Below are positions 4,648-5,974 of a stretch of 64,000 nucleotides of DNA, one piece after another; position 1 is the stretch's first letter; each line of letters opens with the position of its first letter. A program made the position numbers and the translations under genes. Below the pieces are notes generated by a model. It was not told where the DNA came from and searched no databases. It saw nothing but the letters and a program-made list of their open reading frames with translations. Source of the stretch: Sphingomonas crusticola (GTDB taxonomy: Bacteria; Pseudomonadota; Alphaproteobacteria; Sphingomonadales; Sphingomonadaceae); assembly GCF_003391115.1 (NCBI RefSeq), contig NZ_QTJP01000001.1, forward strand, positions 930,001 to 994,000, written 5' to 3'.

Positions 4648-4944
4648 ATGGCGGCGAAGAAATGGTCGCAGGATGTGACCGAGCATAGCGATGCGCTCAA
4701 CCTCGAAGGCGAGGTCTTCAAGAAGGACGATCCGAAGGCGATCGCGGCCTCGCTCAAACGCTCGGCCGAGCACAGCCAGCGCCGCAAGGGCACACCCTTT
4801 CAGTCGGCGATGTCGATGCTCACCTTCTACATCAACCGTGCCGGCGACGGGCTGGATGCCAAGCAGCGTAAGGTGCTGGAAAATGCCAAGGATGAGCTGC
4901 GTGAGGCCTTCGGGCGGAAGCCCGCGCGAAGCCGAGCATCCTGA
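4648..4944 (+). CDS. DUF3175 domain-containing protein
   Basis: Small 98-residue basic, soluble protein. The opening KKWSQDVTEHSDAL and the central SLKRSAEHSQRRK and MSMLTFYINRAG segments are the conserved pattern of DUF3175, a family of unknown function widespread in alphaproteobacteria. No signal peptide or membrane segment. The ribosome binding site is weak (GCGCGG). It lies 60 bases after the lipoprotein gene and immediately before the structured locus at 5020-5190. Confidence 0.8.
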   Translation: MAAKKWSQDVTEHSDALNLEGEVFKKDDPKAIAASLKRSAEHSQRRKGTPFQSAMSMLTFYINRAGDGLDAKQRKVLENAKDELREAFGRKPARSRAS

Positions 4945-4980
4945 CGCGAAAATAGTTGAAATCAAGGCTTGTTCGTAAGC

Positions 4981-5001
4981 GCGGAATGAATCACATTCCG
5001 C
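4981..5001. promoter_or_regulatory. 8-bp inverted repeat upstream of the leader-peptide locus
   Basis: GCGGAATG (4981-4988) and its exact complement CATTCCGC (4994-5001) are separated by AATCA. The dyad lies 19 bases before the strong ribosome binding site at 5020. It could be a regulator operator or a 5' hairpin of the transcript; the sequence alone does not decide. Confidence 0.45.
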
Positions 5002-5033
5002 TTGCTCTTCAACTTGGCGAAAGGAGGTGACCG

Positions 5034-5090
5034 ATGTCTCATGGTTCAGCTTGGGGGTCGGTTCTGTCCGTTCGGGAGACGTGCTTCTAA
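5034..5090 (+). CDS. 18-residue leader-type small ORF
   Basis: ATG at 5034 lies 6 bases after GGAGG in an exceptionally strong ribosome binding site, and the frame runs 18 codons to TAA at 5088-5090, encoding a peptide that starts MSHGSAWGS and ends RETCF. The stop codon is inside the inner stem of the hairpin at 5073-5118, so a translating ribosome would melt that hairpin. Codon content shows no run of one amino acid, arguing against classical amino-acid attenuation. It could be a regulatory leader or a functional micropeptide; translation itself is inferred only from the ribosome binding site. Confidence 0.45.
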   Translation: MSHGSAWGSVLSVRETCF

Positions 5091-5149
5091 CCACGGTTAG
5101 GAGCACCGGGGTCTCCCGGGCCGAACGTTCCGGCCGCTGACCCATGTTG

Positions 5150-5187
5150 GAAGGGTCGCTGGGGTAACCCGGCGGCCCTTCTTCCGT
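5150..5187 (+). terminator. Rho-independent terminator of the 5020 locus
   Basis: GAAGGGTCGCTGGG (5150-5163) pairs along all 14 positions, two of them T-G, with CCCGGCGGCCCTTC (5168-5181) across a GTAA tetraloop of the stable GNRA class. TTCCGTTTT follows directly. Confidence 0.7.
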
Positions 5188-5190
5188 TTT

Positions 5191-5506
5191 GGGACTTCCG
5201 ATGGGCGGCTGGCTTCGTTCCAGGCGCGAACTTCACCGAGCGGGAAAATAAAAAACATCAGAAACGAACTTGATGATTTGCCGCCCGTGCAAGGATGAAG
5301 CCGCCTTGGGCCGCCGGCGAACGGGCACCCCGACGATGCCGTTGCAGATTGTTAAACCTGAGAAATAGCCAGGGCGGCGAGCTGCCGAGGAGGGCATCAA
5401 CGTCGCATCGTGATGCGTACGCTTTGTGCGTACAATTGTCAACACCGATTGGGCTGGTGTGCCTTTGATCGGGCTTGGGCAACGCCAGCTACCACCCGCG
5501 CAGTCG
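5191..5506. other. Gene-free stretch, less GC-rich than its surroundings
   Basis: No reading frame here has a convincing ribosome binding site or family similarity. It contains AT-richer sequence around 5250-5275 and a small dyad GCATC-GT-GATGC at 5405-5416 followed by a direct repeat of GCGTAC. I see nothing I can name; it may carry the 3' untranslated region of the convergent DUF2721 gene. Confidence 0.4.
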
Positions 5507-5974
5507 TCAGCTCCGTTCCAGCAGCTCGTCCCGGATGCGGATCGCGCGCACCGCGACGCGGACCTCGACCAGGAACAGGACCAGGCTCGCGATCAGCAGC
5601 AACAGCGAGGTGGCGAACATCACCGCCAGCGTGCGCGCGAAGCTGAAGCCCGCCAGCCGCGCGACGAACATCATCGCCACCACGGTGCACAGCACGACCG
5701 CGCTGGCCGTTGCCAAGAAGATGGCATTGTTCACGATCCGCATCCGCCGGTCGAGCAGCCGCAATTCATTGACCTGATGCGCGTGCAGCGGATGGTCGCG
5801 CGGCGTGAAATCGGCCTCCACCACCCGCGCCCGATCGACGATGCGCGTCAGCCGTCCGGTCAGCATGCCCAGAATGATGCCGATACCGTTGAGGAGAAAT
5901 GCCGGGGCCAGCGATAGCTGGATCGTATGCGCCAGCCCCGGCAGGCTCGCGACCTGGAAGATATCGTCGAGCAT
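5507..5974 (-). CDS. DUF2721 family membrane protein
   Basis: 155 residues. An N-terminal hydrophobic stretch (IQLSLAPAFLLNGIGIILGM, about residues 18-37) and two further membrane helices near 92-112 and 125-145 fit the DUF2721 family of small inner-membrane proteins of unknown function. The conserved RLTRIVDRAR and LRLLDRRMRIVNNAI segments lie on the loop between helices. The start ATG at 5974 lies 8 bases after the stop of the aminotransferase gene, so the two form an operon. Confidence 0.8.
   Translation of the reverse strand: MLDDIFQVASLPGLAHTIQLSLAPAFLLNGIGIILGMLTGRLTRIVDRARVVEADFTPRDHPLHAHQVNELRLLDRRMRIVNNAIFLATASAVVLCTVVAMMFVARLAGFSFARTLAVMFATSLLLLIASLVLFLVEVRVAVRAIRIRDELLERS

Follow-up and report, generated by a model that had tools for sequence, protein, structure and literature searches.

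A putatively translated homologue of the CC2171 small RNA in Sphingomonas crusticola, with a conserved reading frame but little or no conservation of its peptide

The stretch considered here (the window) comprises 64,000 nucleotides of Sphingomonas crusticola, positions 930,001 to 994,000 of contig NZ_QTJP01000001.1 (assembly GCF_003391115.1), and its subject is a compact intergenic locus that appears to encode a small RNA (sRNA). Between a DUF3175 gene and an antisense DUF2721 gene lie an extended Shine-Dalgarno (SD) sequence, an open reading frame (ORF) of 18 codons, three helices named P1, P2 and P3, and an intrinsic terminator (Table 1). The initial annotation treated this locus as unexplained; comparison with Rfam now places it as a divergent relative of the alphaproteobacterial sRNA CC2171 (RF01867), in which the start, frame and stop of the ORF appear to be under selection while the peptide is not.

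Table 1. Features of the RNA locus and its neighbours, in window coordinates
Feature	Position	Strand	Remarks
DUF3175 gene	4648-4944	+	upstream neighbour of the RNA locus
Probable promoter	4968-4997	+	CTTGTT 4968-4973, CACATT 4992-4997, spacer 18 nt
Proposed transcript, about 185 nt	5004-5190	+	5' end placed from the probable promoter
Full-length RF01867 match	5011-5179	+	covariance-model alignment
Extended SD	5019-5030	+	12-nt exact complement of the 16S 3' tail
18-codon ORF MSHGSAWGSVLSVRETCF	5034-5090	+	ATG 5034, stop TAA 5088-5090
P1, 5' strand	5040-5050	+	codons 3-6 of the ORF; invariant in the window's clade, covaries between clades
P2	5056-5135	+	5056-5061 pairs with 5130-5135
P3 hairpin	5070-5121	+	5070-5080/5111-5121 and 5081-5091/5096-5106; contains the stop codon
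P1, 3' strand	5136-5146	+	two bases 5' of the terminator stem
Intrinsic terminator	5149-5190	+	stem of 15 bp, 5149-5163/5168-5182; loop GUAA; tail TCCGTTTT
DUF2721 gene	5507-5959	-	next gene downstream, antisense to the RNA

The predicted fold of 5020-5200 is far more stable than expected (z = -6.3, with none of 200 shuffled sequences equally good). That the reading frame ends inside a hairpin stem proved correct, the stop codon falling within the second of the two P3 helices, as did the description of a terminator with a GNRA loop; the hairpin itself spans 52 bases and not the 46 first given. The RNA is probably transcribed from a sigma-70-like promoter, which was assigned by eye and is accompanied by weak positional conservation 5' of the SD in relatives. 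A palindrome, GCGGAATGAATCACATTCCGC (4981-5001), overlaps the proposed -10 element and was scored as a terminator-like hairpin, and TGANTCACA recurs 5' of the RNA in many relatives.

The homology emerged from a permissive Rfam search; at the curated cut-off neither the window nor 20 relatives gave a match to the family. RF01867 aligns with the window copy end to end (model positions 1-159, 41 bits), with an E-value of 1.6e-7 when 311 bases are searched and 4.2e-7 against its own genome. The comparison identifies the window RNA as a diverged homologue of CC2171. The own genome holds a second and closer copy at C1:3055750-3055904 (63.5 bits; L052:1501-1655), which resembles the group of relatives designated type A and carries a 24-codon ORF, MSHCLTPTAAQFAGIASIAGVRLV; by eye, it is flanked on one side by a tRNA-like stretch and on the other by a gene resembling glutaredoxin. 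At E <= 0.001, RF01867 matches 85 of 385 genomes of the class, 13 of which reach the 75-bit cut-off, and the single match among 14 control genomes was Caulobacter. All 78 matches found among 398 genomes of a phylum sample (E <= 1e-4; class make-up of the sample unspecified) belong to the same class. At E <= 0.01 the family of genome G611 yields matches in 58 of 81 genomes, with one false match, Deinobacterium chartae, among the controls of that search; L253 was a false match among the 60 loci taken from covariance-model hits.

Of 59 genomes more closely related to the window, 28 gave a blastn match to the region, these being 28 of the 35 from its own family and none of the 24 from other families of the order, and every one of the 28 carries the SD-start core. 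Of the 249 family genomes, 197 contain the exact 5' core pattern, once per positive genome among the matches listed; they represent 79 of the 96 genera, and the reversed pattern used as a control gave 0. An exact 25-base core, in records selected by this motif, was found among the matches listed in Sphingomonas, Novosphingobium, Erythrobacter, Bosea, Methylobacterium, Microvirga, Roseomonas and Brevundimonas. From these comparisons, homologues are spread across the Alphaproteobacteria. A mobile-element origin was rejected, with no match in 72,556 plasmid records; 27 viral contigs contain a 19-base pattern, five of which carry the RNA by reading (L283, L284, L291, L295, L304) and the rest other ORFs.

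Comparison of the homologues also provides evidence for the pairing of the RNA. P1, which joins early codons of the ORF to the bases before the terminator, covaries between clades. The test set was built from the 241 of 253 sequences with both an ORF and a detected terminator, reduced to 223 unique sequences and then to one for each of 86 classes. The two strands of the same locus form a duplex of -12.1 kcal/mol on average, versus -8.8 kcal/mol with the partners of other loci (Wilcoxon p 1e-14, relatedness not removed). One P1 position, anchored on CAU...AUG, takes all four Watson-Crick types and is paired in 30 of 34 distinct combinations, a value that none of 2000 shuffles reaches. Within the window's clade, both sides change in 9 of 32 pairs of P3 and the terminator, and the terminator stem covaries; at P3 columns 68/115 the pair is C-G in 24 and G-C in 13 of 41 cases, so that changes are kept on both sides. 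An internal mimic of the anti-SD could close the SD in some relatives, and this mimic is enriched in type A (mean z -0.83, 35/70 below -1) and in other clades (mean z -1.16, 28/56). An internal anti-SD switch was rejected as a mechanism for the window RNA by the lack of such enrichment in its own clade.

The reading frame is also kept. In the window's clade the stop lies exactly at codon 18 in 72 of 79 unique loci, while frames +1 and +2 end at 38 and 29 different positions. For type A, 89 of 91 loci stop at codons 18-27 (other frames 8/91 and 15/91). Among 194 mixed units the share that ends at codons 14-30 is 94.8%, compared with 22.7% and 35.6% for the two alternative frames. Because these control frames scatter, it is the ORF itself that is kept. 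The stop codon is not fixed in identity, being TAA in 36, TGA in 25 and TAG in 4 of 65 distinct ORFs of the clade. Several loci, L006, L007 and L011 among them, carry insertions as long as about 100 bases immediately 3' of the stop, within the apical loop; the ORF 5' of these is insertion-free. The recurrence of SD, start, frame, stop and pairing in relatives supports the earlier suggestion of a translated sRNA, and selection on start, frame and stop suggests that the ORF in the window is translated.

This conservation bears directly on the possibility that the RNA is a base-pairing sRNA whose extended SD acts as a 30S-dependent 5' stabilizer, with translation being incidental. The short 5' region, the SD at the 5' end of the RNA and the intrinsic terminator would all suit such a role, for which the STAB-SD element offers a precedent (PMC4113751). 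An incidental ORF would need neither a kept frame nor a kept stop, however, and a STAB-SD by definition starts no translation, so that this explanation appears unlikely.

The putative ribosome-docking site is built on an 11-base sequence, AAAGGAGGTGA, at 5020-5030, which is the sole exact match in the window and occurs once in the 3.37 Mb genome. With G5019 included, 12 nt are complementary to the 16S tail CGGCTGGATCACCTCCTTTCT, one more than in the exact complement first described. The tail was taken from a genome of the same family, because an RF00177 search of the own genome (rated 99.99% complete) found no 16S rRNA. The claim that this site is far stronger than any other in the window holds only for the length of the exact match; by duplex energy it is the strongest, and by a small margin, with -20.1 kcal/mol versus -18.8 kcal/mol for the runner-up among 1577 candidate starts, taken from ORFs that are 100 amino acids or longer. 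The complement in relatives is mostly 15 nt, and an AGTG start lengthens it to 17 nt. In the 128 loci that the covariance model detected (one place counted twice), GAAAGGAGGTGATCC is exact in 86 and has one mismatch in 29, 115 in total, a count that is not wholly independent because the model itself scores the SD region. GAAAGGAGGTGATCCNRTG occurs in 55 of the 385 class genomes, once in each (control, 0), and 48 of the 55 occurrences lie inside an RF01867 match when the lists are compared by eye. The seven others are in G186, G189, G415, G337, G266, G160 and G163. In G436 and G405 (of the 48) and G189 (of the seven), GAAAGGAGGTGATCCNRTG precedes ORFs of 55-57 amino acids that resemble exported proteins. 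The same extended SD and start also precede ORFs of 55-59 codons in L098, L125, L136 (Azospirillum), L221, L258 and L201, with a hydrophobic N-terminus followed by a Cys/Ser-rich part; they have the look of small exported proteins, unlike the short peptide-neutral ORF. Either the SD is put to another use there, or these loci form a derived branch.

So long a complement, nearly confined within the class to CC2171-type RNA, would also fit a ribosome decoy or brake, in which the RNA occupies the entire free 16S 3' tail by pairing, titrates 30S subunits and lowers initiation elsewhere, the ORF serving to recycle the ribosome. Such a decoy would require very high abundance of the RNA and leaves the covarying P1 helix unexplained; moreover, a base of the complement has been lost in the window copy and likewise, 3' of the 12-mer, in L002, L003, L004 and L015. 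We regard the decoy as rather improbable.

The peptide shows a pattern different from that of the frame. In the window's clade the ratio of nonsynonymous to synonymous polymorphism (pN/pS) is 1.33 for codons 2-18 and 1.37 for codons 7-18, compared with 0.90 and 0.76 in the shifted frames, using 65 distinct 18-codon ORFs and leaving out the 7 of 79 loci with other lengths. Because strong third-position GC bias can raise pN/pS, neighbouring genes of the same genomes were used for calibration: DUF2721 gives 0.59 versus 1.39 for the small ORF (10 rows) and DUF3175 0.60 versus 3.02 (4 rows), with the window and L001, identical in sequence, counted as two rows. Type A is near neutral, the classes of 22, 23, 24 and 25 codons giving 1.04, 1.05, 0.98 and 0.94 (76 ORFs, other lengths left out). 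Per-position entropy agrees in that third codon positions are not the most variable. The one exception to the missing peptide conservation is codon 2: of 59 loci that the covariance model detected, 56 have Ser there, with all four third bases in use (TCT 38, TCG 11, TCA 4, TCC 3). On this evidence, the window's clade shows no selection on the peptide, and in other clades such selection is weak at best. The check proposed at the outset, conservation of peptide and pairing in related genomes, is therefore answered in two parts, with pairing and frame conserved and the peptide not.

A micropeptide or dual-function RNA, with a functional product of 18-25 amino acids, draws support from the Ser codon and from the G611 family, where pN/pS is 0.75. 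A possible but unconfirmed relative is SEP1 of S. meliloti, a protein of 23 amino acids and isoelectric point (pI) 4.18 with the highest translation efficiency among 54 small ORFs from ribosome profiling (PMC10117765). In the G611 family, probably Rhizobiaceae, a length of 23 codons is seen in 12 of the 28 homologous ORFs, and pI values range from 4.4 to 12 with several at 4.4-4.8; compared by its description, SEP1 is a candidate lead only. The functional, conserved peptide expected of a dual-function sRNA is not what the pN/pS values of the window's clade and of type A describe, and the micropeptide suggested by the initial annotation is hard to sustain. The weakest explanation sees in the RNA an attenuator leader, relic or detached, that has lost its structural gene; it has a leader-like small ORF, nested hairpins and terminator in its favour and is scarcely credible for an RNA that stands alone in widely different genomes, has no run of a single amino acid and shares no common downstream gene in 26 loci.

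The regulated same-strand gene that an attenuator precedes is likewise missing at the window locus, where the antisense DUF2721 gene comes next; a classical leader peptide was thus rejected for want of a downstream cistron, as had been argued from the window alone. In a few relatives an RF-1-domain gene adjoins the RNA: in L234 and L246 (family f29) it follows downstream with the same orientation, and in L270 it lies upstream on the opposite strand; this gene resembles the ribosome-rescue factor ArfB.

The explanation that we prefer, at a probability of roughly one in two, is a translated sRNA that can either load a ribosome or form the closing helix P1, but not both, and for which translation itself is the signal. 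An independently transcribed and terminated RNA of about 185 nt would recruit 30S subunits through its extended complement to the 16S 3' tail, and the short ORF would then be translated, with the peptide as a by-product and ribosome occupancy as the conserved output. Codons 3-6, the 5' strand of P1 when the helix is closed, would be covered by a 30S subunit positioned on the start codon, and by this geometry 30S loading and P1 should exclude each other. Free or initiating ribosomes would keep the RNA open, with its 3' arm exposed and its 5' end protected, and where ribosomes are few the RNA would close. Our hypothesis is that opening and closing alter the target pairing of the RNA, its stability or its titration of ribosomes. 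More tentatively, and with distinctly less confidence, the same may apply to the class-wide RNA, which bears a complement to the entire single-stranded 16S tail: its conserved product would be translation, and occupancy of a peptide-neutral ORF would switch it between closed and open, making it a sensor of or a sink for free 30S subunits.

Several observations weigh against the switching model or narrow its reach. A consensus promoter scan called no promoter at 4968-4997, and the window copy scores 41 bits where the gathering score of RF01867 is 75, for which reason it is filed as a homologue of CC2171 and not as a member. The window copy also lacks one U after the GA of the 16S complement, which shortens the complement. 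As for P1, the partner from the same locus is within the best 5% in just 19 of the 86 classes, and the two positions next to the strongly supported one do not exceed shuffling on their own (264 and 178 of 2000 shuffles reach them). P1 is moreover invariant inside the window's clade, so that its support there comes only from comparison between clades. The internal anti-SD mimic is not enriched in this clade (mean z -0.22, n=51) and was left out of the explanation because its enrichment is found only in other clades. Finally, the 12 ORFs of the G611 family that have 23 codons give a pN/pS of 0.75 (0.92 and 0.89 in the shifted frames), which points to weak constraint on the peptide.

If the preferred explanation of translation as the signal is true, a family listed as "non-coding" and of unknown function would be translated across the greater part of its range, and selection would act on the frame and not on the peptide. 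It would offer a clean natural case for parting "translated" from "protein-coding", would bear on the sensing of free ribosomes in Alphaproteobacteria, and would account for some of the frames located in sRNAs that ribosome profiling surveys report as small proteins.

The Rfam entry describes RF01867 as "caulobacter sRNA CC2171", an sRNA gene, and the entries examined do not mention a coding frame; Landt et al. 2008 reportedly gave the first list to contain CC2171. In the open-licence papers searched (supplements excluded), the family is known by name only, and its translation, peptide neutrality and near-complete complement to the 16S tail are undescribed; the Sphingomonadales sRNA literature, Bradyrhizobium small-ORF papers and matches to the core sequence within that scope yielded nothing on the window RNA. 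In Mesorhizobium huakuii the sRNA MH_s33 is annotated as CC2171, and RNA-seq products are given for 34 of 35 predicted sRNAs, the exception being MH_s6 (PMC5596092). Ribosome profiling of Caulobacter found 2 of 27 earlier noncoding RNAs to be translated and most noncoding RNA regions to be untranslated (PMC4117421); for translation of the window RNA, this survey and SEP1 are leads and not proof.

Several known systems invite direct comparison. The STAB-SD of Bacillus cry3A mRNA is an SD-like element near the 5' end that pairs with the 16S 3' end and can hold a 30S subunit, starting no translation and shielding a long mRNA (PMC4113751). The window RNA, unlike this, has a start codon at normal spacing, 3 nt past the complement, and a kept ORF. 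The rnTrpL/peTrpL RNA of Sinorhizobium is likewise a small translated alphaproteobacterial RNA with a terminator; it is leaderless, a product of the trpE attenuator, and its peptide is reported to be functional (PMC10117765), whereas the window RNA carries a strong SD, belongs to no operon and shows no conservation of its peptide. CC2171 itself differs in having GUG where the window copy has AUG, in the length of the ORF, 18 codons in the window, and in its body helices, and the clade of the window lacks the enrichment of the internal anti-SD mimic. The two share the 5' core, CGAAAGGAGGUGAUCC-start-UCUCAU, the terminator, and an outer helix that closes before it, for P1 is also a consensus helix of the RF01867 alignment.
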